NCBI GenBank assembly: GCA_020443325.1
Contig: JAGRIK010000094.1
Coordinates: forward strand, 1-32,691
Length of the DNA stretch: 32,691 nucleotides
Direction: 5' to 3'
Origin: Halioglobus sp.
GTDB lineage: Bacteria; Pseudomonadota; Gammaproteobacteria; Pseudomonadales; Halieaceae
The position numbers and the translations under genes were made by a program. The notes below the pieces were generated by a model. The model did no database searches and was not told where the DNA came from. It saw nothing but the letters and a program-made list of their open reading frames with translations. This document shows, piece by piece, positions 2,580 through 32,360 of this stretch (position 1 is its first letter; every line of letters starts with the position of its first letter).

Positions 2580-5171
2580 ATGAAAAAACTGACACTAAAG
2601 ACAGTTACTAGCGGGCATTCAGCAGCTGTCTGCGCGCTTTTAGCTCTCGGAGCCAACGGTGCCAAAAGTAACGAGCCGGTGGCCCTGCCGCTTGAGGAAA
2701 TCGTGGTGTCCGCACGCAAACGGGAGGAGAGTCTGCAGGATATTCCGCTGTCAGTTGACGCGTTTAACAGCCAGCAGATCGAGCAGCTCAATATCCGTCG
2801 TACCGAGGACCTGGCAAACTTCACACCGGCACTTACCTTCGATGTGGGTGCCCTGCCCAACGATACCCGGCCCGTCATTCGCGGTGTAAATGCCGCCAGG
2901 GGTAGACCTAACGTCGCCATACTGGTTGATTTCATCGATGTCTCGAGCGAAGCGATGACCGTGGCCGGGGGCGGTATAACCGCCAACCTGCGCGCGATGG
3001 ACCTGGAGCGTATCGAGGTGGTCAAGGGCTCTCAAAGCGTTCTGTATGGCCGATCAGCATTCGCCGGTGCCATTAACTACATTACTCGTCGCCCATCTTC
3101 CGAATTCGAGGGCCGCATAGGCGCTGATTATGACGAGCACAATACTTACACCACCGACCTTTCTGTGTCCGGCCCCCTGATCGAGGACACTCTCAGCGGC
3201 AGGGTGACGCTGGCTTACTACGATACCGATGGCTGGTATGACAACCCCAATACCGGCGGCGATCTTGGCTCGGGCGATTCCAAAGGCGGCTCCCTCGCGC
3301 TGCAGTGGACCCCTAATGACGATCTCAACGCCTATCTGCGTGGGGAGTATACCGAGGACAAGTTCTCACCTCGCGCTGAGGCATTCACACGCTCCATGTC
3401 ACAGTATTTCGATCCCGCCATCAACCCCTACGGTACGGGCACGGTCACTGATGCGGCCACCCAGTTACCTTACGACTTCAACGGAACCGTATGTAATGGC
3501 CTGGACCGGCAACAACCGTATTTCGACAGCTTTGGTGCAGGTCCCGCCTGCCGCCCCATCGTCACGGGAGAATTAAAGGCCGACGAGAATGATATCGACC
3601 TGTCACCCGACCCGCGAACGGGTCGCGATTTTGATGGAACCAACTCCAAGAATGGCCGCGTCAGCCTCGACGTAGAGTATCTGGTTGGAGAGGTATCCGT
3701 TAACTATCTGGGTGGATATACCCACAGCGATCTCCACATCCAGCAGGATTTCGACATGACTAATTACGATATTCTTGCCTTTCCACAGCAATTCGTTAGC
3801 CAGTTCGGCATGTCAGCCATGTCCCAGCAGGACGTCAAGACAGACCAGTGGAGCCACGAACTGCGAGTTTCCGCAGACCATGACCGCTGGCACTGGATGG
3901 CCAGCGCACTGTACTGGAAAGAGAATATGGACGTCGATTTCGATGACGAGTGGTGGCTGCGCGAGGGCGCCGATGAGCAACTGGTACTCGACATGTTGAA
4001 TCAATTTGTCTTCTCTTACCTGCCACCCCCCGGCATGACGTACATCGCCACTGGCCCAGGCAATACACCGGCCACCCCGCTGAAACGGGATACTGAACAC
4101 TGGTCCGTTGCCGGCAGCATTGGTTATGACATAACAGACGCGCTTCGCCTGACAGTAGAGGGACGCTACCTCGATGAAAGCATCAAGTACAGCGGCCGGG
4201 CGGAAGATGTCTCATTCTTCTCGCTGTTTGGCCAGGATCCGAACTTCGGCTCATTCCTGGGACCGGGGATGATGACGCAGAACAAGGTCGACGGATCGAA
4301 GTTTCTACCCCGGGTAACCGTAGACTGGGAAATCAACGACGAGCAGATGGTTTACGCGTACGCCGCAAAGGGATTTAAACCGGGCGGTGTCTCCACAGTC
4401 GATGCCAACGGGGATGTTTCTACTGGCGAGTATGATTCCGAATCGATCTGGACCTATGAAATCGGCTACAAGTCATTGTGGCGTGACAATTCGGTACGCT
4501 TTAACACGGCAGCCTTCTATTACGACTACACCGACCAGCAGGTACCGTATTTTTTCACTGACCCTGTTACCGGCCTCCTTAATTCCACGGTGCTCAATGC
4601 CGGGGAAACGGAAGTGAAGGGTGTGGAACTGGAGTTGTTATGGAATTCAGCTTTTATCAGCGGCTTGTCAGCACAGGTTTCCTATGTTTACTCAGACGCG
4701 GAATACTCCGATTTCAACACAGGTGAGATCCTCGCCAAAGCGGGCGGAACACCGGATGACAACACCCTGGCGCTTGCGGGCAACGCTGAAGGCGATTTCA
4801 GTGGCAACCAGGTGATGGGTTCGCCAGAGCATTCGGGCCTGCTCGGTGTCCGCTACGAACGCGACCTGGGCTACTCACTGGATGGCTATATTGAGATGTT
4901 CGGCCGCTATGAATCAAAACGTTATGTGGATCTGGGCAACCGCGCCTGGCTGCCTTCGCGCTGGACCGGGGATATCTTCGCCGGTGTTACCAGAGACTCG
5001 TGGGATGCGACCGTATACGTGACCAATGTCTTCGATAATGATGATATCGCCAGCGGCGTGAGCAACGTTGATTACGGCTTCCTTCCCGACGCGCAGAACG
5101 TTTCTTCCGCGACCAACCTGGTGATTCCGCAACCGAGAACGTTCGGCATCCGTGCGAGCTATCACTTCTGA
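2580..5171 (+). CDS. TonB-dependent outer-membrane receptor
   Basis: An 863-aa outer-membrane receptor. The N-terminus has a Lys-rich start and hydrophobic stretch (signal peptide, about residues 1-28), then LEEIVVSARKREE, the conserved TonB-box/plug start of this receptor class, a plug domain to about residue 160 (RPVIRGVNAARG, RIEVVKGSQSVLYGR, GAINYITRRP) and a long beta-barrel with alternating aromatic strands ending in a C-terminal Phe (ASYHF), the outer-membrane insertion signal. It imports a large or scarce substrate using TonB energy; this class is common next to genes for complex hydrophobic substrates, but the ligand is not deducible. GGGAG precedes the ATG by about 8 nt. A TetR gene is divergent and a membrane-protein gene follows immediately. 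Confidence 0.95.
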   Translation: MKKLTLKTVTSGHSAAVCALLALGANGAKSNEPVALPLEEIVVSARKREESLQDIPLSVDAFNSQQIEQLNIRRTEDLANFTPALTFDVGALPNDTRPVIRGVNAARGRPNVAILVDFIDVSSEAMTVAGGGITANLRAMDLERIEVVKGSQSVLYGRSAFAGAINYITRRPSSEFEGRIGADYDEHNTYTTDLSVSGPLIEDTLSGRVTLAYYDTDGWYDNPNTGGDLGSGDSKGGSLALQWTPNDDLNAYLRGEYTEDKFSPRAEAFTRSMSQYFDPAINPYGTGTVTDAATQLPYDFNGTVCNGLDRQQPYFDSFGAGPACRPIVTGELKADENDIDLSPDPRTGRDFDGTNSKNGRVSLDVEYLVGEVSVNYLGGYTHSDLHIQQDFDMTNYDILAFPQQFVSQFGMSAMSQQDVKTDQWSHELRVSADHDRWHWMASALYWKENMDVDFDDEWWLREGADEQLVLDMLNQFVFSYLPPPGMTYIATGPGNTPATPLKRDTEHWSVAGSIGYDITDALRLTVEGRYLDESIKYSGRAEDVSFFSLFGQDPNFGSFLGPGMMTQNKVDGSKFLPRVTVDWEINDEQMVYAYAAKGFKPGGVSTVDANGDVSTGEYDSESIWTYEIGYKSLWRDNSVRFNTAAFYYDYTDQQVPYFFTDPVTGLLNSTVLNAGETEVKGVELELLWNSAFISGLSAQVSYVYSDAEYSDFNTGEILAKAGGTPDDNTLALAGNAEGDFSGNQVMGSPEHSGLLGVRYERDLGYSLDGYIEMFGRYESKRYVDLGNRAWLPSRWTGDIFAGVTRDSWDATVYVTNVFDNDDIASGVSNVDYGFLPDAQNVSSATNLVIPQPRTFGIRASYHF

Positions 5172-5172
5172 T

Positions 5173-6096
5173 ATGGAAACTATCGCGCAGGCAATACCCG
5201 ATAAAACGCAGCCGACAAGCAGGCTGCGTAAGGCTCCCTTCCTCGGAATACTCCTCCTGGGACTAATGCTGGGCGAAAAAATGCTCGCCCATACTTACAC
5301 GGTACTCACTATCTACGTGCTGCCTGAGCCCTGGAAGTACTGGGTTCCGTTCATCGTCGGTCTGGCGGGTTTTTGGCTGGTGATGCGCGGCATGGGTCGG
5401 GACGAGGTTAAGGGATCGTTACTTGGTTATGCCGGTGCAGTGTTAATCTGGATGTCCTGGTTCGAAAGCGGCCTTCCGCTGTTGGCAGCATACAATGAAG
5501 TACCGGTATTCCTTCCAACCGAGGGCAACAAGATGGCAGGGCTGCTGGGTGAGCATGTGATATTGCAGGCCAGCGGCATCTTCTGCCTGGTGACACTGTT
5601 CTTTATCATGCTGAACAAGGACGTACGCTGCAGGATGTTGATCTGGATCCGCCGTCGCCTCGGCATGACCGTTATCGGCAAACCCACCCAGGGATATCGA
5701 CCCAATGTGGCGCGGGTGGCCGCGTTTGAGTATATCTATGTCACCTGGTTCATGTATGTGCTGACCCTCGTGCTGGTTGACCCGAGACTGCTGGGCCTCT
5801 ACCACCCTCTGACCTATGTGCTTTGCGGGCTGGTCATGCTTTGGGGGGTATACCTGGGCTACAAACTCACGACACAACGTGAAGTGGGTTTAAGTGTTCG
5901 CTACGCGATTGGTGCGGTAGGAGTCCTGTGGTTTATTCCCGAAATACTCGCGTTGTACGAGGTTTTTTACGAATTCTATCTCCGGGTGGACAAACACCCC
6001 GTGGCCATGAGCATCGTGCTATTGATGGTGATATGGATCTGGCGGGTGTTGTGGAAAACACCTGTAAACCCATCCACGGGCAAGTCGCTGACCTAG
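5173..6096 (+). CDS. Polytopic membrane protein of unknown function
   Basis: A 307-aa very hydrophobic protein with about eight predicted membrane helices (roughly residues 21-42, 58-76, 85-108, 128-150, 190-213, 218-236, 248-270 and 283-300), a polar N-terminal tail and a basic loop (about 155-175, with IRRR) that is probably cytoplasmic. I recognise no known family motif. The ATG lies one base after the receptor stop codon, so translation is probably coupled to the receptor; an in-frame GTG at 5152 would give 21 bases of overlap and is the alternative start. The position suggests an inner-membrane partner in uptake or sensing of the receptor's substrate, but that is inference only. Confidence 0.8.
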   Translation: METIAQAIPDKTQPTSRLRKAPFLGILLLGLMLGEKMLAHTYTVLTIYVLPEPWKYWVPFIVGLAGFWLVMRGMGRDEVKGSLLGYAGAVLIWMSWFESGLPLLAAYNEVPVFLPTEGNKMAGLLGEHVILQASGIFCLVTLFFIMLNKDVRCRMLIWIRRRLGMTVIGKPTQGYRPNVARVAAFEYIYVTWFMYVLTLVLVDPRLLGLYHPLTYVLCGLVMLWGVYLGYKLTTQREVGLSVRYAIGAVGVLWFIPEILALYEVFYEFYLRVDKHPVAMSIVLLMVIWIWRVLWKTPVNPSTGKSLT

Positions 6097-10570: not shown

Positions 10571-10747
10571 GGAGAGGCTCGCTGCGGTGGGTCCGAGTGT
10601 GGGTGTTGCTGACCATAGAACCGGCTTCGCCTGCGGTCAACCACTGCGGCCGGAATATTGAACCGAACAACCGCATTTGTGGCGAATGCTGGTTCATCCC
10701 GGCCAGCGCTGCCACACTGCAGCGCAAGACCTTGCAGGTGGAACGGT

Positions 10748-12463
10748 ATGGCAGAAGAGAACCCGGACGTAGCGGTTGACTGGCTGGTAGTGGGCGCAGG
10801 TGCTGCCGGCATGACCGGCGCCGTGGTCGCACACCAAGCGGGCGGCTCTGTGCTGGTGGTGGAGAAAGAGGCCGTCTACGGCGGCACCACAGCGAAGTCC
10901 GGGGGTGTGGCCTGGATTCCGGCGAACCATCGGCAGGCCGCGGTGGGTGTCCAGGACAGCGTCGAGGAGGGCTACGCCTACCTGAAAGCGTTGATCGGCG
11001 ACAGCGTCAGTGACGCACGGATCCGCGCCTACGCCAACCGCGCCCGCGAAATGTTACTGTTCATGACGACCCACAGCCACGTGGCCTATTCGGCGCTGCC
11101 AAAGTACATGGACTACTACGAACACCTGCCGGGGTATAAAAACGGAGGGCGCTCCATGGACAACGCCCCCATCGACCTGCGCAAACTGGGCGCGGATGCC
11201 GCAACCATCAGGCTGGGGCACTACGATGGATTGTTACTGCCCTTCAATGTCACCGTGGAGGAAGGCCAGTCCCTGCAGGAGATGAATGCGGGCGCCTATT
11301 TAACCGGTTTGCGCCTGCTGCTGCGCTACCTGCTGGACATCCCCGCCCGACTGAAGCGCCAACGTGACAATCGCCTGACGCTGGGCCCGGCACTGGTGGC
11401 CAGGTTGCGGCTCTCTCTACAGGATCGGGATATTCCCCTGTGGCTGAACTCGCCTGTGCGAGAGCTGTTGCAGGACGATGGGCGCGTCTGCGGTGCACTG
11501 GTGGAACACGAGGGCAAGGTGCAACGCATCCATGCGCGCCGTGGTGTGTTGCTGGCCACCGGCGGCTTCTCCCACAATACCGAAATGCGTCAGCAGTACC
11601 AGCGCGCGCCCATCGGCAGCGAGTGGACCGCTGCCGCACCGGGGGCCACCGGAGACGCCGTGACGATGGGCACACAGATCGGCGCTGCACTCGGTTTTAT
11701 GGAGTGTGCCTGGTGGTCGCCCACCTACACGATTCCGGATGGGCGCGTGCTGGCGTTGATCGCCGGTAAATCCAACCCGGGGTCGATCATGGTCAATCGC
11801 CAGGGCAGGCGTTTTGCCAATGAGGCACAGCCCTATGAAGACCTGGTCAAGGCACAATATGACAGCGAAGCCCGCGGCGAGGGGGCCATCCCCTGTTACC
11901 TCGTGTTCGACGCAACTTACCGGGCCAAATACGCTGTCGGCCATTTGAAGCCGGGAAAAGTGGAACGCGACGCCGGGCTGCCGCCAGAGAACTTTACCTC
12001 CGGGTTACTGACGAAGGGCGAGACGCTGGAGGAACTGGCGGACGCGCTAAACATTGACCGTGCGGCACTGTTGCAGACCGTGGAGAATTTCAATCGCCAC
12101 GCCCGCAATGGTGAAGACCCCGAGTTTGGCCGTGGCGCAACGCAGCACGATCGCTATTACGCCGATAAAACCGTGTCGCCCAATCCCTCGCTCGGGCCGC
12201 TTGAAACTGCACCCTACTACGCGTTGCGCTGTGACCCGGGCGACCTGGACACCAAGGGCGGTTTGCTGTGTGATGAGTACGCCCGCGTGCTGGATACCCA
12301 CGGCGAAATTATCGAGGGGCTCTATGCAGCGGGTAATGCCAGTGCCGCCGCAATGGGAAACACCTATCCCGGCGCGGGCGCGACCATTGGCTCGGCGATG
12401 ACGTTTGCCTATATCGCCGCGCGCCATGCGTTCGGCATTAATGACGATCAGGAGCCAACATGA
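10748..12463 (+). CDS. FAD-dependent 3-ketosteroid delta1-dehydrogenase-like protein
   Basis: A 571-aa FAD_binding_2 flavoprotein. The dinucleotide site is VVGAGAAG (14-21) with Glu39 binding the ribose, followed by GGTTAKSGGVAWIPAN (45-60), matching the SGG-x-WxPxN element of KstD. Near the C-terminus APYYALRCDPGDLDTKGG carries the Tyr (490/491) equivalent in place to the catalytic Tyr487 of Rhodococcus KstD1, and the protein ends with GNASAAAMGNTYPGAGATIG, the FAD-closing motif of that family. Known members desaturate the A-ring of 3-ketosteroids, but fumarate-reductase-like relatives also exist, so the exact substrate is inference. AGGTGG precedes the ATG at 10748; the frame is open to 10658 (TTG, no Shine-Dalgarno). 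The stop overlaps the next start (ATGA). Confidence 0.87.
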   Translation: MAEENPDVAVDWLVVGAGAAGMTGAVVAHQAGGSVLVVEKEAVYGGTTAKSGGVAWIPANHRQAAVGVQDSVEEGYAYLKALIGDSVSDARIRAYANRAREMLLFMTTHSHVAYSALPKYMDYYEHLPGYKNGGRSMDNAPIDLRKLGADAATIRLGHYDGLLLPFNVTVEEGQSLQEMNAGAYLTGLRLLLRYLLDIPARLKRQRDNRLTLGPALVARLRLSLQDRDIPLWLNSPVRELLQDDGRVCGALVEHEGKVQRIHARRGVLLATGGFSHNTEMRQQYQRAPIGSEWTAAAPGATGDAVTMGTQIGAALGFMECAWWSPTYTIPDGRVLALIAGKSNPGSIMVNRQGRRFANEAQPYEDLVKAQYDSEARGEGAIPCYLVFDATYRAKYAVGHLKPGKVERDAGLPPENFTSGLLTKGETLEELADALNIDRAALLQTVENFNRHARNGEDPEFGRGATQHDRYYADKTVSPNPSLGPLETAPYYALRCDPGDLDTKGGLLCDEYARVLDTHGEIIEGLYAAGNASAAAMGNTYPGAGATIGSAMTFAYIAARHAFGINDDQEPT

Positions 12464-13515
12464 GTGGACGCAAGTACGCCTACCTTGAAGCGGGCCGGTA
12501 TGCGCGGGGCTGGCACATCGTACTGTTCTCACAGGAGTTACTGGTTGGCGAGGTGAAACAACTGCGCTATTTCGACCAGGATCTCATCGCCTACCGGGGC
12601 GAGTCGGGCAACGTTGCGATCCTGGACGCGCACTGCCCCCACCTCGGTGCCAACCTCGGCAGTGGCGAGGGCCGGGTGCGCGGCGACAATATTGCCTGCC
12701 CCTTCCACGGGTGGACCTTTAACCCGCAGGGCCAGTGCGTGGACATCCCCTATGCGAAGAGTATCCCGCAGAACGCCGTCAATGCACTGAAGGGCTGGCC
12801 CGTACTGGAGCAGGATGGTTTTATTGCACTGTGGTACGGGCTGGCCAGCGAAGAGCCGGAAGACTACCTGCCCCGAATCACCGAGTGGGGTTCGCAGGAC
12901 TGGGGCGACTGGCAGTTCTACCGCTCCCGCATTCGCGCCAGGCCCTGTGACATCATTGAGAATATCGTCGATATTGCGCACTTCCCCCATGTACACGGTG
13001 GGCGGGTTCAGTCCTGGGAAAATCGCTTCGGGGAGCGCACTGTCACCCAGTTATCGACCGTAAAGCGCGACCCGCAGGCCAACATGATCATCCCGCCCGG
13101 TGTCGTGTTTGATGTCGAATCAGCACGCGACGAGGCCGGGCAGGATGCCGATGCCTGGGGCGACGCCACTTATCATGGGCCGTCCATCATGTACTACTAC
13201 ACAGAATCCCGAAGCCCGGATGTGAGTTTCAGGAGTTGGTGGGTAAACTGCCACACCCCGGTAAACCAGGATGAAGTAGACCTGTGTTCGGCGGTGATCG
13301 TCAGCAGCCTGGGCGATACGCCCCTGCCGGTTGAATTTGCGGAGTTGTACCCACAGATGGCCCATGCTGCGTTTGGCCAGGACGTGGAAATATGGAAGGA
13401 CAAGATCTACCGTGAAGATCCCATCCTGTGTGATGGGGATGGCCCGATCAACAAACTGCGCCGCTGGTACGAGCAGTTTTATCTCCCCATCGATAAATCC
13501 GGAAGGAAGAAATAG
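12460..13515 (+). CDS. KshA-like Rieske non-heme iron oxygenase
   Basis: A 351-aa oxygenase component. The Rieske [2Fe-2S] ligands are Cys59-x-His61 (CPH) and Cys80-x2-His83 (CPFHGW). The mononuclear iron site is Asp171-x2-His174-x4-His179 (DIAHFPHVH) with Asp308 (QDVEIWKDK) as third ligand. The C-terminal GQDVEIWK...LRRWYEQFY block is close to that of 3-ketosteroid 9-alpha-hydroxylase oxygenase KshA as I know it, and the iron-ligand spacing also fits. KshA hydroxylates C9 and, with KstD, opens ring B; the upstream KstD-like gene overlaps by 4 nt and supports that role. No reductase (KshB) gene is in the window, so electrons must come from elsewhere. Substrate is inferred from family similarity. 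Confidence 0.88.
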   Translation: MSGRKYAYLEAGRYARGWHIVLFSQELLVGEVKQLRYFDQDLIAYRGESGNVAILDAHCPHLGANLGSGEGRVRGDNIACPFHGWTFNPQGQCVDIPYAKSIPQNAVNALKGWPVLEQDGFIALWYGLASEEPEDYLPRITEWGSQDWGDWQFYRSRIRARPCDIIENIVDIAHFPHVHGGRVQSWENRFGERTVTQLSTVKRDPQANMIIPPGVVFDVESARDEAGQDADAWGDATYHGPSIMYYYTESRSPDVSFRSWWVNCHTPVNQDEVDLCSAVIVSSLGDTPLPVEFAELYPQMAHAAFGQDVEIWKDKIYREDPILCDGDGPINKLRRWYEQFYLPIDKSGRKK

Positions 13516-15930: not shown

Positions 15931-15949
15931 CAGGCGCTGGCCTTTTTTT
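15915..15949 (+). terminator. Probable intrinsic terminator of the carboxyltransferase gene
   Basis: CCTGC (15918-15922) pairs with GCAGG (15930-15934) across the stop codon, an outer GGCC/GGCC pair extends the stem with a bulge, and a run of seven T follows (15943-15949). The bulge makes it imperfect. Confidence 0.5.
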
Positions 15950-16022
15950 GGGCCGAGATAGTGACAGCGGGTGCCTTTCATGCCAACATCGTCGCTCGCC
16001 TAGGGACCAATCCGGAAATCAC

Positions 16023-17339
16023 GTGACGATAACAAAAACCACGCAGCAATTCTTTGCCGGCTTGTGCGCGATTCTGTTCGCATCGTTGACATTCGCCGCC
16101 GTCAATACCGTACCCAACTACGGCTATCCGATAAAGGATCGCTTTGCCGCCACGGTCGTCGGGACACCGGAGGAATACCGGGCCAAATTGCCAGACGATG
16201 TCCCGTTTAAAGGCCGCAGCATTACGATATTCCCCGAGCGCGTGACACCGGACGTGTTCTTTTACGGCCATGAGCTGCTTTATTCGGTTGCACTGCAGGA
16301 TAAGGAAGCGCCCCTGATCTTCCTCATCGCAGGAACCGGCGCCTCGCACAATGGCGCCAAGAATACCGATATGGCCAAGGCGTTCTACCAGGCTGGCTTT
16401 CACGTCGTTTCAATCTCGTCCCCCACCTATAACAATTTTGTTATCGCCGCGTCCAAGACGGGCGTTGTTGGTCACGCCGAGAGGGACGCTGAAGATATCT
16501 ACCACGTCTTTGAGATGATCTGGGCTGAGCTGAAGAACGAGATCACAGCCACGTCCTTCAATGTGACCGGTTATAGCCTGGGTGCCTTCAACGCGGCCTT
16601 TGTCTCGAAACTGGACGAAGAGCGCAAATCATTCAATTTTAAACGTGTACTGCTGATCAATCCGCCGGTATCGCTGTACAACTCTATTTCGCTGCTGGAC
16701 CGGATGACCCAGGATATCCCGGGCGGCGTCAACAACTTTGACAAGTTCGTTGACAAGCTGATGCGCGCCTATACCACGACCCTCGAATCCACCAGTTACA
16801 AGGATACCGCCGATGCCGGTGGAGATGACTTCCTCTACAAGACCTACAAGGCGTTGCATTTAAAAGACGAAGAACTGGCCGCGCTGATTGGCACGTCATT
16901 CCGCGTCTCGTCCGCCTCCCTGGTGTTCACCTCTGACGTTATGGCGGATTACGGTTATATCAAGCCGAAGGGAATGGTGCTGAACCGCTACAGCGATCTC
17001 CGTCTCTACAATGATGTCTCACTGCGGCTGGGCTTTACCGACTACTACCACGAGTTTTTCTACCCCTACTACAAATCGGAATACCCCGATATGACCCGGG
17101 ATGAGTTTATCCACTCGATGAGCCTGACCAGCATTGAGGACTACCTGAAAAGTGCGAAAAAAATTACGATGATGGGGAATGTCGACGACGTGATCCTCGA
17201 ACCCGGGGAGATTGATTTCTTCCCCAGGGTGTTCGGCGACAGGGCCACTATTTATCCCTACGGCGGCCACTGCGGCAACATGAGCTACACGGATAATGTA
17301 GCCCACATGGTAGCCGCATTTACCGAGGGGACAATGTGA
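16023..17339 (+). CDS. Exported alpha/beta-hydrolase (serine esterase-like)
   Basis: A 438-aa protein with an N-terminal signal sequence (hydrophobic residues about 9-26, ending FAA) and an alpha/beta-hydrolase core: oxyanion-region loop LIAGTGASHNG (101-111), nucleophile elbow GYSLG (183-187, Ser185) and a C-terminal catalytic His near 416 (YPYGGHCG). It is likely a periplasmic or envelope esterase/lipase; no closer family is recognised. The GTG at 16023 has GGAA 6 nt upstream and begins the signal peptide; the frame opens at 15948. It heads an operon: its stop overlaps the MlaA start, so it probably acts on envelope lipids or on an ester substrate handled by the same proteins. Confidence 0.82.
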   Translation: MTITKTTQQFFAGLCAILFASLTFAAVNTVPNYGYPIKDRFAATVVGTPEEYRAKLPDDVPFKGRSITIFPERVTPDVFFYGHELLYSVALQDKEAPLIFLIAGTGASHNGAKNTDMAKAFYQAGFHVVSISSPTYNNFVIAASKTGVVGHAERDAEDIYHVFEMIWAELKNEITATSFNVTGYSLGAFNAAFVSKLDEERKSFNFKRVLLINPPVSLYNSISLLDRMTQDIPGGVNNFDKFVDKLMRAYTTTLESTSYKDTADAGGDDFLYKTYKALHLKDEELAALIGTSFRVSSASLVFTSDVMADYGYIKPKGMVLNRYSDLRLYNDVSLRLGFTDYYHEFFYPYYKSEYPDMTRDEFIHSMSLTSIEDYLKSAKKITMMGNVDDVILEPGEIDFFPRVFGDRATIYPYGGHCGNMSYTDNVAHMVAAFTEGTM

Positions 17340-24428: not shown

Positions 24429-25049
24429 TTAGCTTGTCTGCCCCTGCGCCGTGCAATCCCGATCCCAAACCGCAGACAGAAGGTTCCTGCACAGGTCTGC
24501 CAGATCTGTAGAAATTTCATCGAACGTTAATTTTCCGGTCGTTGCTAATATAAAACTGCCCAACAGATACCGGAAGATGGTGCTTTCTACTTTACCCCGG
24601 TTGGCGACCGGAACTTCACCCAGCACACTGCCGAAGATCCCACTAATCAGGCGCTCAATCTCGTGTTGCGCATCGATCACCGCCGGATCTTCGGATGCAA
24701 TATTGTTTACGCAGACGGCCAGCAGTGTGCTGCTGCCCGCAGCCAGCGTACTGACTTGCGCGCACAACGATGAAATTTTTCCCCCCACGGTGCGTCCCTG
24801 CGGCGGATGTTGTTCCAGAAATTCAATGAGCCGGTAGCCCGCATCGAGCGTCACATCGGCAATCAGGTGCTCGCGCGACGTGAAGCTCCTGTAAAGCGTA
24901 CTCCGCGAGGTCCCGGCCATTGCGGCCACCGCTTCCATGGACATCGTAGCGCCCTGTTCCAGTATCAACTGCCTGGCACAAGCAATAATGTGCTGCCGCC
25001 GCTCCTTTTGCTGGGGACTGATGCGGCGCTTGATGATCTGTACCTCCAA
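24429..25049 (-). CDS. TetR/AcrR-family transcriptional regulator
   Basis: A 206-aa TetR protein; the helix-turn-helix spans about residues 14-60 (MSMEAVAAMAGTSRSTLYRSFTSREHL). The ligand domain is of normal length and gives no ligand clue. The TTG start has AGGAG 6 nt upstream. It is divergent from the P450 gene, and a 16-bp perfect palindrome overlapping the P450 -35 lies between them, so repression of the P450 and autorepression are likely. Confidence 0.9.
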   Translation of the reverse strand: MEVQIIKRRISPQQKERRQHIIACARQLILEQGATMSMEAVAAMAGTSRSTLYRSFTSREHLIADVTLDAGYRLIEFLEQHPPQGRTVGGKISSLCAQVSTLAAGSSTLLAVCVNNIASEDPAVIDAQHEIERLISGIFGSVLGEVPVANRGKVESTIFRYLLGSFILATTGKLTFDEISTDLADLCRNLLSAVWDRDCTAQGQTS

Positions 25050-25123
25050 CCTGCTCTCCTACTTCCCTAGTTCCATGGTGAATGCGCGAGATAGGCTCTT
25101 CATAACGCGCAATGATACTAGTG

Positions 25124-25140
25124 TTGACACACGTGTGTCA
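25124..25140. promoter_or_regulatory. TetR operator candidate on the P450 promoter
   Basis: TGACACACGTGTGTCA (25125-25140) is a perfect 16-bp palindrome. TTGACA at 25124-25129 is a consensus -35 for the rightward P450 promoter, though its -10 (TTTATC, 16-nt spacing) is weak. A dimer on the palindrome would block polymerase. Confidence 0.65.
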
Positions 25141-25188
25141 CCTGCTTTATCGTCTCCCGCAAGCCATGCCTATTTTCAGGAGCCGCGC

Positions 25189-26367
25189 TTGAATAAACAG
25201 GATCAACTGGCCCAGGATTTTTCAACCTGGGAACTGCCCGGCCTGGAACTGCACCGGTTCATGGATGAACTCCGCCAAATGGGTTCTGTGGTCCCCATCA
25301 CCTATTACGGTACCAGCGGCTACCTGGCGACGACCCATGACGCCTTGACCCGCGCGTTCAAGGATACACAGAACCTGCCTCCGGAGCGGGCCTACCAGTT
25401 AGGTATCGCGCCGCTGATTGGCGAAAACTTTCAATCCATGTCAGGAGAGCGCCATCGGCTGTACCGAAAGCTGGCAACACCGACGTTTCGGCCCAAAATG
25501 GTCGATAAGATGGACAGCGCCATGCTCAAGGATGTTGCCAACGAACTCATCGATAAATTTGTCGCAGCGGGTGAAGCCGATCTGACGAAAACGTTCACCC
25601 TTTTATATCCTTACATCGTAATTGCCCGCATGCTGGGCATACCCCGCGACGAGGAGACAAAGTTTGCCGACTGGGTGGTCGGCCTGCTGCATTTCACTTC
25701 GGACCCGGAACGCGCTTACAGATGCCGCGATGAGCTCTGGACTTACCTCGATCCTGTAATTGAGGATCGTCGGCGCAGCCCGAAAGGCGATGTTATCTCC
25801 CAGTTGATTCACGACGAGGTCGACGGGGTAAGAATGGATGATGCCCTGCTCAAGTCCCATATCGGCATTATGTTCAGTGCCGGCTCATCGACGACTCACG
25901 ACTCGCTCGGCAATCTCCTCTATGCCCTGCTAACGACAGGAAACTGGGCGAGAGTACGCGACGATGAAGCACTTCGCGATAGTGCGATTGATGAGGCCCT
26001 GCGCTGGGAAGCCGCGGTATCCTTCCTGCCACGCATGACGCCGGAGACGACATCAGTAGTAATCGAAGGCGTAGAAATACCCTCCAACACATTTGTATTC
26101 ATGGGCATTGCGTCTGCAAACCACGACCCGGCCAGGTTTGACAACCCCCATGTATTTGCCATCGACCGTACGGAAGAATCCAAGTCGATGACCTTCGGCC
26201 ACGGCCCCCGGATGTGCCCAGGCATGCACCTGGCGCGCATGAACCTGCGCACCACTCTGGACTCGCTGCTGGAACGTCTGCCAAACCTTGAGCTAACCAG
26301 CCTGGAGGGAGCGGCGCCAAGCGGCACAATCTTCAGGCACCCCACGAAGTTGCTCTGCCGGTTCTGA
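25189..26367 (+). CDS. Cytochrome P450 (soluble bacterial type)
   Basis: A 392-aa class I-type P450. The I-helix oxygen site is SAGSSTTHDS, the K-helix ExxR is EALR and the heme loop is FGHGPRMCPG with Cys343. Size and the CPG-x-H-L-A-R-M-N-L pattern place it among soluble bacterial P450s that hydroxylate small or medium hydrophobic molecules. The TTG at 25189 has CAGGAG 6 nt upstream; the frame is open to 24937, but that part contains the divergent promoter and palindrome. A divergent TetR gene suggests substrate-induced expression. The ferredoxin at 30802 is the only redox partner in the window and belongs to another P450 operon; this P450 may share it. Substrate unknown. Confidence 0.9.
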   Translation: MNKQDQLAQDFSTWELPGLELHRFMDELRQMGSVVPITYYGTSGYLATTHDALTRAFKDTQNLPPERAYQLGIAPLIGENFQSMSGERHRLYRKLATPTFRPKMVDKMDSAMLKDVANELIDKFVAAGEADLTKTFTLLYPYIVIARMLGIPRDEETKFADWVVGLLHFTSDPERAYRCRDELWTYLDPVIEDRRRSPKGDVISQLIHDEVDGVRMDDALLKSHIGIMFSAGSSTTHDSLGNLLYALLTTGNWARVRDDEALRDSAIDEALRWEAAVSFLPRMTPETTSVVIEGVEIPSNTFVFMGIASANHDPARFDNPHVFAIDRTEESKSMTFGHGPRMCPGMHLARMNLRTTLDSLLERLPNLELTSLEGAAPSGTIFRHPTKLLCRF

Positions 26368-26597: not shown

Positions 26598-28862
26598 TTA
26601 TAGCCCAAAGTTATAGCTTAGGGTAATCCCGTAAGTGCGCGGGGCAATCTGACTTCTGATTTCGACATAGGGCGAAGGGACCATCACGCCAGTTGAGTAA
26701 TCGGGTATATCAGGAAGCGACCTGTCCTTTAACTTTGCGCTCTCATCCGCAATATTTTTAACCCAGACATTGACGTCCCATACCGCATCGACAGATCGCA
26801 AACCCACATACAGATCCAACGTGACATAGCTGTCCAGGTCATCACGGAAGACGGGCGAGTAGTACTCAGTCTCCGCATTGAGCAAACCGCGCAGATACCA
26901 CTCGCTGGAAATACTTCTAACGCTACCCCAGTATTCGGAGGACACATTGGCCGACCATTCTGGCAAGCCGCTGGCTCTTTCCCCAGTCAGGTCACAGGTA
27001 TTGAAGGACCAGACCGCCGCACCAATAGGCTCTCCATCGGTACACGGTACGTCACCGGCGTCAGTCAATTCCGTCTGGTTGAAGCTTAAAGACGAATTTA
27101 GATTCCAGTGCTCGCTGATTAATACAGAGAAGTCGGTATCAAAACCGTAGGACTCGGCCTCATCCACATTGACCACGGGATCAGAGAGTGAGATGTTGCC
27201 GTCCTGATCCCTGTAGGACACACTCGCAGCCTGGTACTGGAACTGATCGTAAAGCTGGTAATATGCAGCGAAGTTAAACAGGCCACGGCCATCCCACAAT
27301 TTCCACTTGAAACCGATTTCCAGGTTATAACTATCCTCTGAATCGAAGGCCCCGAATACAGGCGGCTGTGGATTTCCAGCAATGTTGGCCGAACCGTCCC
27401 GCCAGCCTGTATCGAAAGCCGTATAGGCCATCAGGTCGTCATGAAAATTATACTGGTACTTAAGTGATCCAGTCACAGCATTGTCGGAGAGATGCTGCGC
27501 GCCTGGTAGAACACCATCCGTCTCCCTCGACTGGACCAGCAGTTCCCCCGCAGGCGTCAGCAGGTATACATCTGTCAAAAACGGCTGAGCCGCGTCGCGT
27601 TTGACATCGTTGTAACGCAGACCAACGGTTAATGTTCCGTTCTCGCTTACGTTTATCGAATTATGCGAGAACAATGCCCAGTCTTCGCCCGTCAATGATG
27701 CTGACGAGTCTGTATCGGCACGCACTACGGTTCCCTGAATACGGGGGTCGAACAGATAGGTACTGACATCTACCTTTGTATTTGAATCAGAGTCTCCATA
27801 ATAGGCACCCACGGTCCAGTTCCAGAAATCGTTGTCCTGCGAGGCGAGACGCAACTCATAAATATTGGCCTCGGTTGGCGAAGGCACATATTGCTCACGC
27901 GCCTGCACAGCCGTTGCATCCTGGTCGTAATAGCGATCAATCGCTGCATCTTGGTAGCTGTAGGAGAATGTAGCGACCCACTCATTGGAAAACGTGTAGT
28001 TACTCTCCAGAATCAGGAATTTAGCTTTGTTCTTATAGGTGGAATCAAATTCCGCCAATGCGATCCGATCATCAAAGTCCAGACCTGCACCCTCGACGAC
28101 CGGGTCAGCATCCGCATCATCCTTAATATGGTGCCAGGATAAACGCGCGTCAAAATTATTCGTGGGCTCCCATAACATAACCAGGCGATAGGCTTTGGTT
28201 TTCGTCTCTGCGTGTTTGTCCAGGGTACTGTTATAGACATCGCTGTCTTCATTGTTGTCGTACAGCCCCGATACTCGCAGACCCAGTTCGTTCTTTATCA
28301 GCGGCAATGATGCCGCAACCTGTGTATTGGTCCCATCCCGGTCATTAAAGCTCTGCCTGATCGATCCGTCTATCTTTTCCAGATTCGGGTTGGCGGTTCT
28401 TATCGTTAACGCGCCCGCCGGCGAGCTTTTTCCATACAGCGTCCCCTGGGGACCACGCAACAGTTCCAGTTGCTGAAGATCGAACAGGCCGCTGTACAGG
28501 TTGCGGGATTGCGAGATAAATGTCCCATCCATATATGTGGTGACACGCGGCGAAACGGGGGCGTTCAGATTGGTGCCCATGCCACGTGTCGCGATGTCAG
28601 TATCGAAATTCGTGCCGTTGATAGTAAGGCCGGCGGTCATGTTGGAGAGTTCATCAAAACTGAAAATGGCATATTCATCCAACGCCTCTCCCGTTACCAC
28701 GTTGATAGTGATGGGGGTATCCTCCAGCGACTCCAGGCGTTTCTGTGCCGTGACGATAATCTCCTCCAGCACCAGAGAGGACTCAGCCTGCACTTTGGCA
28801 TGGAATGTCACCGCAAGAGATAAGACGGTGCTGACCAGTAATGGATAGTTTTTTACTCGCAT
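26598..28862 (-). CDS. TonB-dependent outer-membrane receptor
   Basis: A 754-aa receptor with a signal peptide (about residues 1-26), LEEIIVTAQKRLESLEDTP at the TonB box/plug start, plug motifs DIATRGMGTN, LELLRGPQGTLYGKSSPAGALTI, and a beta-barrel ending SYNFGL, so the usual terminal Phe is followed by Gly-Leu. It imports a large or hydrophobic substrate; this sub-class is typical of receptors in terpenoid/steroid and sugar degraders. AGGTGG lies 8 nt before the ATG and a promoter with an inverted repeat is at 28898-28926. It is the last gene of a minus-strand block with the duplicated-domain protein, ferredoxin and CYP51-like P450, though with its own promoter. Confidence 0.95.
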   Translation of the reverse strand: MRVKNYPLLVSTVLSLAVTFHAKVQAESSLVLEEIIVTAQKRLESLEDTPITINVVTGEALDEYAIFSFDELSNMTAGLTINGTNFDTDIATRGMGTNLNAPVSPRVTTYMDGTFISQSRNLYSGLFDLQQLELLRGPQGTLYGKSSPAGALTIRTANPNLEKIDGSIRQSFNDRDGTNTQVAASLPLIKNELGLRVSGLYDNNEDSDVYNSTLDKHAETKTKAYRLVMLWEPTNNFDARLSWHHIKDDADADPVVEGAGLDFDDRIALAEFDSTYKNKAKFLILESNYTFSNEWVATFSYSYQDAAIDRYYDQDATAVQAREQYVPSPTEANIYELRLASQDNDFWNWTVGAYYGDSDSNTKVDVSTYLFDPRIQGTVVRADTDSSASLTGEDWALFSHNSINVSENGTLTVGLRYNDVKRDAAQPFLTDVYLLTPAGELLVQSRETDGVLPGAQHLSDNAVTGSLKYQYNFHDDLMAYTAFDTGWRDGSANIAGNPQPPVFGAFDSEDSYNLEIGFKWKLWDGRGLFNFAAYYQLYDQFQYQAASVSYRDQDGNISLSDPVVNVDEAESYGFDTDFSVLISEHWNLNSSLSFNQTELTDAGDVPCTDGEPIGAAVWSFNTCDLTGERASGLPEWSANVSSEYWGSVRSISSEWYLRGLLNAETEYYSPVFRDDLDSYVTLDLYVGLRSVDAVWDVNVWVKNIADESAKLKDRSLPDIPDYSTGVMVPSPYVEIRSQIAPRTYGITLSYNFGL

Positions 28863-29106: not shown

Positions 29107-30456
29107 CTAACCGCGGGCGATTACGCCGGGCATACGGCGCCTTTCAAATTTGAAATTTACGCCGCCGCTACTTCGAGCAATCTGCATCTCAAACGGCTCC
29201 TTCATGGGCGTATTCTGTTCATCGATCACGATATCCCAGGCAAAACCAGAGCCACCATAATCGTCAACTTTATGACAGCGTGCGCGGGGATTGACGTGCG
29301 CTGCAATAGACTCCAGCGCGGGATGAGGGTCCGCCGACAACTGGCTGAACCAGTTGTGCTTTACCGCTTCAGCCAGCGCAGGGCAGTCGCCGATACTGAG
29401 GCGCAAACTGTTTGGCCCGGTAATATCGACATTGAAATCAACATAGGTGCGAGGGTAGAAATTCGGGTGCAGCTGGAAGATTTTCGCCATGGTCTCGATA
29501 TCGTCACCGTCCAGCCCCAGGTTCTTCTGAAAACGCTCCACCGCTACCCTACCATGACCTACCCATGACCGCTCCGAGAATCGACGGCCTACCTCGTCAC
29601 CATAATTAATGGTCTGGCTGCGGGTGTAACTGTGCGACAGCAGAAGTGCCTGAACGGCGTTTTCCTGAATAATGGTCTGCAGGGCGCGGTGCGAAAAATC
29701 CTCAAACTGAAGGTGCGGGTCAAATTGCCCGCTGTAGTCGTCGAGGCCGCCGGTCTCTCTTGTTTCCTCAGGCGCTACCAGCGCGATACCTGCCAGCAGA
29801 CTCTTCTGCAACTCATACATAATGGAGTGATGCTCAAAGGTAGTATCTTCCTCCTCTTTATACACTTTCCAGCGACAGTGCGGATAACGCCCGACGCCGT
29901 TCCCGCCATCGACATCAATTCGCGGTGGACGATGCAGGGGCCGCACGACGATGCGCGGATGTGTAGCGGCCGCTGTGGCATCGAAGGTCGGATCCTCTAT
30001 GTCATGGCACATCGCCTGAATAAATCCGGTGTCATTGCCGTTGTTCTCCAGGTCCATCAACGCACCGCAGTGCGCCAGCCAGAACTCACCGTAATCGGGT
30101 TCATCCAGACGAAACTGGAAGTCCATGAACTGCTGTGGAGAGCCCACCTCGAGTTGAATGTTTTTGAACACCGTCTCCACGGTATCACCCTCGAAACCGA
30201 GCGCGCGCTGCATACGCTTCGAATAGATAGGGCTAGCACCCTGCCACTCCTCAATCCCCGATCGGGTAAAGCCTTCGCGGCCATAATCAATCGCCACCAA
30301 AGGCTGAGCCACTCGATCAAACAGGTGCCCAATCAAATTAAACTCGTGCGCCAGGCGAGAGAGAAAATCTCTGGAGAAATCCTCCAGCATTAATTGCGGG
30401 TCGAATGCACCGGAGTAATCATGCCTCAGGTCGGGCTGTTTACTTTGCTTACTCAT
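29107..30456 (-). CDS. Unrecognised protein made of two diverged copies of one domain
   Basis: A 449-aa soluble protein with no signal or membrane segment. It is a tandem duplication: repeat 1 (about 13-200) and repeat 2 (about 240-425) both begin DYSG-x-FDP-x-L-x2-EDFS, followed by a helix-rich stretch, then a DYG/NYG element, a block ending in G-x-D-G/T-x-ET and Q-L, and a Cys-x-ALx(E/D) site (Cys130 and Cys358) and DPxxx(D/E)-x-A-A-x3-P. The conserved Cys and nearby Asp/His in both copies suggest a catalytic or cofactor role, but I know no named family. AGGAG precedes the ATG by 8 nt; a TTG one codon earlier is the alternative. It lies between the ferredoxin/CYP51-like operon and the receptor, all minus strand. 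Confidence 0.85.
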   Translation of the reverse strand: MSKQSKQPDLRHDYSGAFDPQLMLEDFSRDFLSRLAHEFNLIGHLFDRVAQPLVAIDYGREGFTRSGIEEWQGASPIYSKRMQRALGFEGDTVETVFKNIQLEVGSPQQFMDFQFRLDEPDYGEFWLAHCGALMDLENNGNDTGFIQAMCHDIEDPTFDATAAATHPRIVVRPLHRPPRIDVDGGNGVGRYPHCRWKVYKEEEDTTFEHHSIMYELQKSLLAGIALVAPEETRETGGLDDYSGQFDPHLQFEDFSHRALQTIIQENAVQALLLSHSYTRSQTINYGDEVGRRFSERSWVGHGRVAVERFQKNLGLDGDDIETMAKIFQLHPNFYPRTYVDFNVDITGPNSLRLSIGDCPALAEAVKHNWFSQLSADPHPALESIAAHVNPRARCHKVDDYGGSGFAWDIVIDEQNTPMKEPFEMQIARSSGGVNFKFERRRMPGVIARG

Positions 30457-30801
30457 CAAATCTTCTCCTGTGTAAAAACTCCCGGCAATTCCTTAACACG
30501 ATGCCGCTCCAACGCTGTGTAAATGAGTAAACTCTCCACCGCTTCCTTCGCACCGTGCCCCGGTTCATTCTATCCCGGACGTCAACTGTGAAATGTTGAC
30601 TTCAGATGACGGAGCCCCCTGACGGGGACAGAATGACATCCATCATCTGATGGGCAAGCCGGTAAAGCAATTCACAACACTAAAGCGCAAGCCGGTCGAG
30701 AACATTTATACACCAACAACTGGAGCGGCAGTGGCGTTTCGGTGCAGGACTCGCGACTACGTCGCCCAGACTCCCCAACCGACCCGGAAATTCCAATAGC
30801 G
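30457..30801. other. Intergenic region with small hairpins
   Basis: This 345-nt gap holds no credible gene. Three inverted repeats are visible: CCCC-x5-GGGG (30615-30627), CCATCA-TC-TGATGG (30640-30653) and GCGAC-TAC-GTCGC (30753-30765). None has a T-run, so no clear terminator for the ferredoxin gene is seen; the gap must include the promoter of the duplicated-domain gene, whose boxes I cannot place with confidence. Confidence 0.4.
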
Positions 30802-31026
30802 CTAATCCTCGTCGAGTAACAACAGGGTGATAACCTTGTTCGGACAGTACTTCGCTGCAGCTTCAACTTTTCCGCTAAGGCTACTATCCGGCCTGGACTG
30901 CAGCACCCGCACCCTGGGATAGACCGCGGTTTCATAGTCTATCGCAAACACTTCTGGCGCCTCCTCGGCACACTCGCCGTGGCCCTGGCATAATTGCATA
31001 TCAACTTTAATACAGTACCGTCCCAC
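30802..31026 (-). CDS. [3Fe-4S]-type ferredoxin, P450 redox partner
   Basis: A 74-aa ferredoxin. The first two cluster ligands are in CQGHGEC (C-x5-C, where the residue normally giving the fourth ligand is His/Gly), and the last is in KYCPNKV, the single-cluster pattern of P450-associated [3Fe-4S] ferredoxins. It passes electrons from a ferredoxin reductase to the P450 encoded just upstream. The GTG start shares one base with the P450 stop (TAGTG) after GGGAGG, so the two are translationally coupled; the longer frame starting at 31065 would overlap the P450 by 40 nt. The same P450-ferredoxin order is known for cyp51 in mycobacteria. No reductase gene is nearby. Confidence 0.9.
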   Translation of the reverse strand: MGRYCIKVDMQLCQGHGECAEEAPEVFAIDYETAVYPRVRVLQSRPDSSLSGKVEAAAKYCPNKVITLLLLDED

Positions 31027-32360
31027 TAAGCCTCCCGCCTGCGACGCCGATATCGCAACATGCACGGCGCACTCGGCCGTAAAATCAAAGAGGGCATGAT
31101 ATCGGTATAACTCTCCGGGGCATCAACTGTTTCAAAGGTATATCGGTGCAACAGTGCGCAAAATATTGCCTTTACCTGCAGCAGCGCGAAGGCATTGCCG
31201 ACACATTTTCGATGTCCCCCTCCAAAAGGGATAAACGAGAACACGTTGTCCGGATGCTTTCGCGCTGGATCAAACACTTCGGGGTGATCATAGAACGCTT
31301 CCAATCGATGGGCTACATAAGGGGACACCATCACGTTCTTACCGGCTTCGATGTGGTAATCCGCATAATCAAAGCCCTGCATCACCCTGCGAGTGAGCGT
31401 CACCAGGGGCGGGTGCAGTCGCAACGTCTCCAGTATAAAAGCATCCAACAGGGGAATTTCCTTCAACGCATTGCGACTCAACTCCGTGGTGTGGCGGAAA
31501 AGCTCATCGATCTGCAGAGTAATGTCTCCAGCGAGTTCCGCATGGCGAGCCAACTCCACAGCCGCCCAGCTGGATGTGTTACCGCTGGTATGATGGCCAG
31601 CAAACATGAACCAGATCACCATACCGCATATTTCATCATCGCTAAGCCCGGTACCATCTTCATAGGTGGCATCCAGGTATACCTGCAACATATCGTCGTA
31701 TTCCTGATTATCCTGTCGGCGCAAGGCAATCCGCTCGCCAATGAGCTCCCCCAGCCTTGCCCGTGCAATATCACGCCTGACAGCCACTTGTTCCTGCCCC
31801 TGGGGGTCCCGCAAGGCAGCCGGGCTGACCGCATATTCCAGGTCGTGGTACAGATCCGCAAATTCATCTGTCAGTGAGTAACGAAACTCTGAGCCCATGA
31901 GGCAATGCGTGGAAGTCTTCAACGTCAAACGCGTAAAGGCGTCGTAGATATCCAGTTCTCCTTCATCACCCCAATCCGATACCCAGTCCTCGACTTCTTT
32001 GGCGATGACCGCCGCATAGGTTTTCATCCGATCCTGGCGCAGTCCGCGTGCCTGCATCTTGAGCTGCTGGCGTTCTATCTGGGGGGGCGCACCATACTGA
32101 ATGCCTTGCCCAAACACGGGCACCATCATCTGGTAGGCCTCGGCCGCACTAAGAAGGTCATCTGGCGCTCGGAAAACCGCCTCCTGTGCCGCCGGGGACA
32201 CCATCAGGACCGTTTTAAGGCCGGCGAGGTCAAACTCACACACCTCACCGTTTTCGTTATAGGCACGCTGCAAGAAAAGCGCCGGGTTATCGCAAAACTC
32301 CTCGTAATGGCCCATGTTCTTCTGTGCGCCACTGACCTGGGGAATGGGTATTGATTTCAT
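31026..32360 (-). CDS. CYP51-like cytochrome P450 (sterol 14-alpha-demethylase family)
   Basis: A 444-aa P450. The I-helix signature FAGHHTS (253-259) is diagnostic of CYP51, ETLRLHPPL (311-319) is the K-helix, PFGGGHRKCVG holds heme Cys386, and the C-terminus PCMLRYRRR resembles that of mycobacterial CYP51. The B-C region AYQMMVPVFGQGIQYGAP (75-92) aligns with the sterol-contact motif Y-x-F-x2-P-x-FG-x2-V-x-(F/Y)-D: Tyr76, Phe83 and Tyr89 are kept, but residue 78 is Met and residue 90 is Gly instead of Asp. CYP51 enzymes remove the 14-alpha-methyl of sterols in three oxidations; the substitutions suggest a related rather than identical substrate. GAGAAG precedes the ATG. A ferredoxin gene overlaps its stop by one base. 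Confidence 0.9.
   Translation of the reverse strand: MKSIPIPQVSGAQKNMGHYEEFCDNPALFLQRAYNENGEVCEFDLAGLKTVLMVSPAAQEAVFRAPDDLLSAAEAYQMMVPVFGQGIQYGAPPQIERQQLKMQARGLRQDRMKTYAAVIAKEVEDWVSDWGDEGELDIYDAFTRLTLKTSTHCLMGSEFRYSLTDEFADLYHDLEYAVSPAALRDPQGQEQVAVRRDIARARLGELIGERIALRRQDNQEYDDMLQVYLDATYEDGTGLSDDEICGMVIWFMFAGHHTSGNTSSWAAVELARHAELAGDITLQIDELFRHTTELSRNALKEIPLLDAFILETLRLHPPLVTLTRRVMQGFDYADYHIEAGKNVMVSPYVAHRLEAFYDHPEVFDPARKHPDNVFSFIPFGGGHRKCVGNAFALLQVKAIFCALLHRYTFETVDAPESYTDIMPSLILRPSAPCMLRYRRRRREA

Follow-up and report, generated by a model that had tools for sequence, protein, structure and literature searches.

In the 32,691-nucleotide contig of Halioglobus sp. analysed here (JAGRIK010000094.1; hereafter the window), a minus-strand gene encodes a tandem-domain protein that is called V4R2 in this work. 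V4R2 represents a genuine, unnamed family in which a DUF6125/V4R-like domain is doubled, and this family is tied to bacterial CYP51, the sterol 14alpha-demethylase family of cytochromes P450. Its relatives occur in three bacterial phyla, often near sterol-demethylating enzymes. Why bacteria that do not make sterols keep CYP51 is an open question. For the Mycobacteriales, it is raised in the available text of the discussion of PMC13277303. As V4R2 recurs in the CYP51 clusters of Halieaceae and Myxococcota, and a single-domain form lies near an actinomycete CYP51, it offers a direct handle on this question.

The gene and its parts, in window positions, are the following.

29107-30456, minus strand: V4R2, tandem-domain protein of 449 amino acids (open reading frame, ribosome-binding site, 11 homologues in genome_contigs)
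30465-30469, minus strand: Shine-Dalgarno-like AGGAG, read directly, upstream of the V4R2 ATG
29848-30420, minus strand: N-terminal DUF6125/V4R-like domain (residues 13-203, approximately), in which the residue set is complete
29110-29739, minus strand: C-terminal domain copy, residues 240-449, found by blastp and hhalign against the N half, with an incomplete residue set

Direct reading places the ATG at 30456 and the end of the stop codon at 29107 on the minus strand, and a promoter and terminator scan gave nothing beyond chance. The two halves of the protein are homologous, with 29% identity over 194 amino acids and a blastp score of 70.1 bits, compared with a top score of 29.3 bits against the N half in 1000 shuffles of the C half. 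In hhalign, the half-profiles align at 99.3% when built from a 12-sequence alignment and at 99.9% when built from a 36-row alignment. The start block reads DYSGAFDPQLMLEDFS at residues 13-28 and DYSGQFDPHLQFEDFS at residues 240-255, C130-GALMD of the N half is aligned with C358-PALAE of the C half, and the DP..AA..P block takes the forms EDPTFDATAAATHP and ADPHPALESIAAHVNP. The first-pass annotation, made from the letters of this DNA, had described the reading frame with its strand, coordinates and motifs, and had taken the protein for a duplicated single domain between a CYP51-like P450 with its ferredoxin and a TonB receptor. Direct reading and the alignment of the halves bear this out, and the neighbours are as it described them.

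A scan of genome_contigs found 11 relatives of V4R2 at 51-80% identity, including proteins of Halieaceae, Halioglobus, Gammaproteobacteria, Myxococcota and Deltaproteobacteria. The match L003 was set aside as chance, the open frame there resembling diaminopimelate decarboxylase by eye. Among 140 genomes of the window's family, homologues were present in 26, at 40 places (E <= 1e-10), with all 18 genomes of the genus included. These were sorted by score into subfamilies A (that of the window), B (about 35% identical) and C (about 28%), and the window's own genome carries a second copy of subfamily B (contig C130:5255-6463). Across the phylum, a sample of 398 genomes gave a match at E <= 1e-5 in the window's own genome only. 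In Myxococcota, the phylum of locus L009, 31 of 188 genomes match V4R2, several only partially. None of 30 viral stretches contained it, and the only relative in the plasmid collection is a protein of the actinomycete Nonomuraea gerenzanensis. This protein is a single-domain homologue of 221 amino acids, closer to the N half (45% identity) than to the C half (27%). Together with the similarity to DUF6125 described below, it makes the doubled form look, at the sequence level, as if derived from a single domain, with the N half as the better kept copy.

The link to CYP51 starts with the nearest P450 gene.

31026-32360, minus strand: CYP51 (sterol 14alpha-demethylase family), 379 bits to 7jj1/6mi0/6mcw and 333 bits to 1e9x

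In the PDB search, 55 of the 56 top rows (from the best 60 of 89 matches) bear the name CYP51 or sterol 14-demethylase, the exception being 9wat, named Cytochrome P450. By its sequence, then, this P450 is a CYP51, with a predicted 14-demethylase activity. When CYP51 is counted at E <= 1e-60, it is found in 30 of the 140 family genomes; V4R2 and CYP51 are both present in 24, V4R2 alone in two, and neither in 108. Outside the genus, both occur in seven genomes, V4R2 alone in one, CYP51 alone in six and neither in 108 (Fisher p 2e-7, a value that ignores relatedness). Physical proximity follows the same trend, as 20 of the 40 V4R2 places lie at most 10 kb from CYP51, where about 0.3 would be expected at random in genomes of 4.2 Mb, related genomes not being independent. 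Seven of the eight genomes reached through the genome_contigs relatives also contain CYP51. The 27 loci from outside the family (L008-L014 and L078-L097, in stretches of 7-21 kb) include CYP51 in eight, an NTF2 protein in nine and a 3beta-HSD-like protein in six. In L079, L080, L084, L085 and L086 the genes for CYP51, NTF2 and V4R2 are co-directional, followed in all except L079 by a 3beta-HSD-like gene. In Halieaceae, clusters with subfamily B hold NTF2, CYP51 and 3beta-HSD-like genes together, a few kb from V4R2. Among the CYP51 proteins of all clusters, 7/24 have a fused ferredoxin. In Nonomuraea, CYP51, ferredoxin and NTF2 form a group on one strand; the gene of the single-domain homologue has the opposite orientation, and the 2.3 kb between it and CYP51 contain a further open reading frame. 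V4R2 genes in GC-rich loci are easily overlooked by gene calling, and in the neighbourhood clustering used here V4R2 was still left uncalled in four loci (L008, L083, L085 and L092). The first-pass annotation had named co-occurrence of homologues with P450 or steroid genes as a sign to look for, and V4R2 indeed co-occurs, and often clusters, with CYP51. It is very probable that V4R2 belongs to a CYP51 module.

Some of these neighbourhoods have features of their own. A recurrent Halieaceae cluster of subfamily B (L040-L043, L045, L046, L116 and L117) comprises a TetR gene, V4R2, a luciferase-like oxidoreductase, NTF2, CYP51, a 3beta-HSD-like gene and, mostly, MaoC; in some of these loci there is also a PQQ-repeat protein or a Rieske gene of KshA type. 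In L038 (Halieaceae genome G127, contig C40, of the window's genus), V4R2 is accompanied by a Myxococcota-like CYP51-ferredoxin fusion, NTF2 and a 3beta-HSD-like gene, a set that suggests a transfer of the module between phyla. Finally, plasmid p2 of Planktothrix agardhii (L119) carries a cluster in which a CYP51-like P450 (38%) is accompanied by three further P450 genes, three Rieske proteins, a gene of the phytoene/squalene synthase family and a protein of the emopamil-binding family; this may be a pathway to sterols or triterpenoids encoded on a plasmid.

Neither Pfam nor NCBIfam had a model that matched the V4R2 protein of the window. The first-pass annotation knew of no named family for it, and this holds, with only a remote profile similarity to DUF6125 (PF19620) to add. 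In hmmscan, that model did not match the window protein; the best family member scored 21.4 bits (L010) against a gathering cut-off of 27, and the single-domain Nonomuraea protein (L118) scored 17.0 bits, with its residues 18-181 aligned to positions 2-161 of 164. The profile comparison is clearer. Against a profile of DUF6125-type proteins (five proteins from the DUF6125 genome search, four of them over the cut-off), hhalign gave 88% for the N half (E 2.9e-6, residues 23-199) and 97% for the C half (E 9.6e-11), while the decoys ATC_hydrolase and NTF2 stayed below 1% with the V4R2 halves. In the alignment of the N half with the DUF6125-type protein L064, C130, E154, P177, P178, C194 and W196 are in register, and the middle Cys of L064 stands three columns off C150. 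The DUF6125 model was matched in 5/140 genomes of another phylum; a search of 114 genomes of the class gave zero matches for it and for its controls too, so that it shows no absence. In L066 (1222-2124, minus strand), a single protein joins an NTF2/SnoaL domain to a DUF6125-like one; domains of these two kinds are found near each other in CYP51 clusters. The pattern of Cys residues had also suggested ATC_hydrolase (PF14196), a candidate that was rejected, as hhalign gave 0.3-0.5% and hmmscan no match in family members. The DUF6125-like protein L067 does match this model in addition to that of DUF6125, at 26.4 bits for a cut-off of 28.1, and through it ATC_hydrolase is, on sequence, a possible remote relative of V4R2.

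Structure prediction points towards another set of relatives. The Pfam models for V4R (PF02830), TRAPP Bet3 and H-NOX had no match at E <= 10 in the V4R2 family members scanned, and a profile search of the PDB with V4R2 returned one chance match at 0.086 and nothing else. The full-length AlphaFold model of V4R2 has a predicted template modelling score (pTM) of 0.88 and a mean predicted local distance difference test score (pLDDT) of 83.8. Both halves run through the same order of elements in this model: helices (a single long one in the N half and two in the C half), another helix, a beta hairpin, helices, two strands and a helix. When the model was searched with Foldseek, 42 of the best 50 of 105 matches were TRAPP/Bet3 proteins, V4R phenol sensors (PoxR, MopR and DmpR) or H-NOX proteins. 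Although these matches are weak, the halves of V4R2 quite probably have a V4R-type fold, as far as the model can tell. A search of the open-licence PMC literature found no paper naming DUF6125 and, among the matches listed, none on V4R2 or on a V4R/DUF6125 protein with CYP51.

Conservation was followed in the 36-row alignment of V4R2 homologues of subfamilies A, B and C, from which two rows of L036 (one repeating L004, the other truncated where the region ends), the 281-residue fragment L034 and rows sharing an identical C-terminal stretch were dropped. The codons of the central residues are as follows.

30067-30069, minus strand: C130, Cys, invariant in 36/36 rows
30007-30009, minus strand: C150, Cys, invariant in 36/36 rows
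29995-29997, minus strand: E154, the Glu of EDPTF, invariant in 36/36 rows
29875-29877, minus strand: C194, the Cys of C-x-W, invariant in 36/36 rows
29383-29385, minus strand: C358, the C-half counterpart of C130, conserved in 35/36 rows (S in L008)

The invariant residues include R48, W71, S75, P76, Y78, R81, K98, Q101 and W126, as well as C130, C150, E154-D-P-T-F, R176-P-P, C194 and W196. The N half alone has the invariant set of three Cys and one Glu together with the EDPTF and RPP motifs. In the alignment of the halves, the C half offers no equivalent of C150, E154 or C194 and keeps the first Cys only. Another Cys of the C half, C394, is invariant in the 12-row alignment, lies opposite neither C150 nor C194, and is absent from the B rows displayed. 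The single-domain Nonomuraea protein retains the three Cys and the Glu, with EDGTF in place of EDPTF. The first-pass annotation had read the Cys kept in both halves as a sign of two active or ligand sites. Of this, the aligned pair C130/C358 stands; two equal sites were rejected, as C150, E154 and C194 are unmatched in a C half that has one of the three Cys. With only the first Cys kept there, one intact site appears likelier than two from the sequences. In the available text of PMC7264223 and PMC10715001, V4R sensors coordinate zinc through three Cys and one Glu, the ligands in DmpR being Cys151, Glu172, Cys177 and Cys185 (PMC7264223). There is about an even chance that C130, C150, E154 and C194 of V4R2 form a comparable metal site, probably for zinc.

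An NTF2 protein that acts after CYP51, 8,14-Bsr, has been described (Lee, Giner, Welander 2026, PMC13277303). In the available part of that paper, its activity was lowered by mutation of Y43 or D133 and by Y37A and Y78A, and was unaffected by changes of Y80 and D136. The six residues so examined (Y37, Y43, Y78, Y80, D133 and D136) are found in 12/12 cluster NTF2 proteins, the first as Y or F, and in the Nonomuraea NTF2 protein (L118) their spacing is identical to the numbering given in that part of the paper. The PDB search gave no match for the NTF2 proteins of L043 (E <= 0.01) and L118 (E <= 1), the presence of a solved 8,14-Bsr in the set being unchecked, and the NTF2 profile search of the PDB returned only yybH, at 0.033. 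A strong NTF2 class (E <= 1e-60, a cut chosen after seeing the score gap from about 1e-61 to 1e-17) is found in 19/140 family genomes, and all 19 have a V4R2 match, a partial one in G053; at E <= 1e-10, 46/140 genomes have NTF2. In the window's genome, the strong NTF2 match and a second CYP51 are neighbours on contig C184.

As for the origin of the sterol, the triterpene cyclase model (PF13243) matched in none of the 18 genus genomes and in two of 14 control genomes, and endogenous sterol synthesis was rejected for the genus on this result. Seven of 19 further genomes matched the model; four matches were strong and of squalene-hopene type by the motif DxDDT, which we take to mark that type, and three were weak (22-29 bits). 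The window itself has two adjacent genes of steroid-ring type.

10658-12463, plus strand: 3-ketosteroid-delta1-dehydrogenase-like (KstD-like) flavoprotein (NCBIfam PRK12844, 598 bits, cut-off 789)
12460-13515, plus strand: KshA-like Rieske oxygenase (Pfam KshA_C, 2.1e-54)

The second of these also scores 70 bits to the SdmA 4beta-methylsterol monooxygenase model (cut-off 600). A Halieaceae isolate grew with cholesterol, according to the available text of PMC5790920. With no cyclase in the genus, the KstD- and KshA-like genes and this isolate, the substrate of the V4R2 module is probably a eukaryotic sterol taken from the surroundings.

Closer to V4R2, the window contains the following genes.

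30802-31065, minus strand: ferredoxin, CYP51-type partner (best PDB matches the ferredoxin part of 6mcw, Cytochrome P450 51, and 8amp)
26598-28862, minus strand: TonB-dependent receptor (Pfam PF00593, PF07715)

From upstream, the order on the minus strand is thus CYP51, ferredoxin, V4R2 and TonB receptor. A single operon is not established, because of the gaps of 345 bp between ferredoxin and V4R2 and of 244 bp between V4R2 and the receptor, and a role of the receptor as sterol importer is a guess. Elsewhere, 24429-26367 holds a TetR regulator and, divergent from it, another bacterial P450; the open reading frames of the two, as called, overlap in their 5′ parts, and this second P450 may start after its listed ATG. 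Two proteins had no Pfam match at E <= 1e-5, one of 463 amino acids (15948-17339, plus strand) between carboxyltransferase and MlaA lipoprotein genes, and one of 314 amino acids (5152-6096, plus strand).

From these observations a role can be proposed, although tentatively, at somewhat under an even chance: V4R2 may be a cytosolic carrier of sterol intermediates for the CYP51 demethylation module in sterol degraders. A CYP51-centred module would remove the 14-methyl group from sterols taken up by marine sterol degraders. The N half of V4R2 would bind a hydrophobic sterol intermediate in the pocket of its domain, held together by the putative metal site of C130, C150, E154 and C194, and the C half would be a degenerate copy that completes the structure. 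V4R2 could thereby hold the water-insoluble product of CYP51 and hand it on to the 8,14-Bsr-like NTF2 protein and to the 3beta-HSD-like dehydrogenase. Such a carrier or chaperone may be likened to BchJ, which is a V4R protein. The role of BchJ as a pathway chaperone is suggested, and unproven, in the available text of PMC7242693. For V4R domains in general, binding of hydrophobic ligands and signalling in cis or in trans have been proposed (PMC2253512, in its available part). Sterol binding by V4R2 is what we infer here, and the role with the P450 on a hydrophobic ligand that the first-pass annotation had favoured is plausible, given the co-occurrence with CYP51 and the weak V4R/Bet3-like fold.

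Several observations weigh against this proposal. Six of the 140 family genomes have CYP51 without V4R2, genome G647, reached through the genome_contigs relatives, has no CYP51, and the other 20 of the 40 Halieaceae places have no CYP51 match within 10 kb, several of them being on short contigs. Seventeen of the 27 outside-family loci lack both CYP51 and NTF2 within the 7-21 kb stretch. In trees of 21 linked V4R2/CYP51 pairs, for which the program warned of long branches, a nine-row group of subfamily B is common to both (100/99 and 99/97); the window and L004, by contrast, join the Myxococcota type in the V4R2 tree and other Halieaceae in the CYP51 tree. This conflict suggests, at the level of sequence trees, that the partners were swapped at least once; strict co-inheritance is not seen. 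As for structure, the best Foldseek E is 0.035 (probability 0.97), none being <= 0.001 among the matches listed, and the fold is assigned from the full-length model because folding the N half by itself yields a poor one (pTM 0.30). The order of the putative ligands is Cys-Cys-Glu-Cys in V4R2 and Cys-Glu-Cys-Cys in DmpR, as given in the available text on the latter; with the same residue set in a different order, the zinc site is put forward hypothetically. Finally, the motifs EDPTF, RPP and C-x-W, dense and invariant, might just as well belong to a catalytic site.

This last point leads to the closest alternative, a close second to the carrier. V4R2 might be an enzyme of the module, with the Cys/Glu/Arg cluster of the N half as its active site. 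Its reaction would be an additional step on the sterol nucleus that follows 14-demethylation or takes place around it; for instance, it might shift a double bond or contribute to C-4 demethylation. The conservation described above (C130, C150, EDPTF, R176-P-P and C194-x-W in 36/36 rows, mostly kept in the single-domain form) suits this idea, as do the match of L067 to a model named after an enzyme and the presence of several sterol-type enzymes in clusters where V4R2 is the conserved member without a family name. On the other side, V4R2 matches no enzyme family in Pfam or NCBIfam, its solved fold relatives in the weak Foldseek matches are mostly binding, sensing or tethering domains, and the ATC_hydrolase comparison was negative. 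An enzyme is a real but lesser possibility. The invariant N-half cluster fits a carrier or an enzyme alike; when only these two are compared, the choice of a carrier is evenly balanced. A bolder version, which is rather unlikely, has V4R2 as a new family of metal-dependent V4R/DUF6125-type sterol enzymes that catalyses an undescribed step on the 14-demethylated sterol nucleus and completes a CYP51-ferredoxin-8,14-Bsr module; with it, marine bacteria that have no sterol synthesis of their own would strip and degrade eukaryotic methyl sterols.

Less probable still is a general role in steroid or isoprenoid metabolism, the CYP51 link being a by-product of large steroid gene islands. The 17 outside-family loci mentioned above, the KstD- and KshA-like genes 16-18 kb off in the window, and C-subfamily genes, often without a nearby CYP51, are in line with it, but the presence of V4R2 tracks that of CYP51 and NTF2 across the family genomes, and clusters with both recur in Halieaceae and Myxococcota, with proximity in the actinomycete. 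It is improbable that V4R2 senses a ligand and regulates the cluster in the manner of the V4R domains of DmpR and MopR, through an adjacent TetR or another partner: such signalling is described for V4R domains, and a TetR gene is found in 21/52 clustered loci and adjoins V4R2 in many Halieaceae loci, but none adjoins it in the window, TetR proteins sense ligands by themselves, and no homologue scanned has a DNA-binding, kinase, ATPase or other signalling domain.

To our knowledge, no sterol role has been known for DUF6125/V4R-like domains. If V4R2 carries or converts sterol intermediates, this would be the first, and, as far as the modelled fold is correct, a fold common to eukaryotic vesicle tethering (TRAPP) would be tied to bacterial sterol handling.

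Compared with known systems, V4R2 shares with DUF6125 the profile alignment of each half and the letters of six N-half residues in L064; it differs in scores below 27 bits for every family member scanned, in the doubling of the domain and its link to CYP51, and in a middle Cys that is off register. The likeness to V4R, Bet3 and H-NOX proteins lies in the overall fold, by weak Foldseek matches, and in three Cys and one Glu like those of the zinc site of the sensors, as described in the available text on them, whereas V4R2 has no Pfam match to them, another order of Cys and Glu, a tandem duplication and no signalling domain found. With ATC_hydrolase, the three-Cys pattern is similar by eye, but hmmscan finds no match and hhalign is negative. 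The closest counterpart in gene content is the CYP51-ferredoxin-8,14-Bsr clusters of PMC13277303: although no V4R- or DUF6125-like partner is described in the available part of that paper, those clusters have the same kind of CYP51, a ferredoxin either encoded separately or fused, and an NTF2 protein in which the six residues occur.

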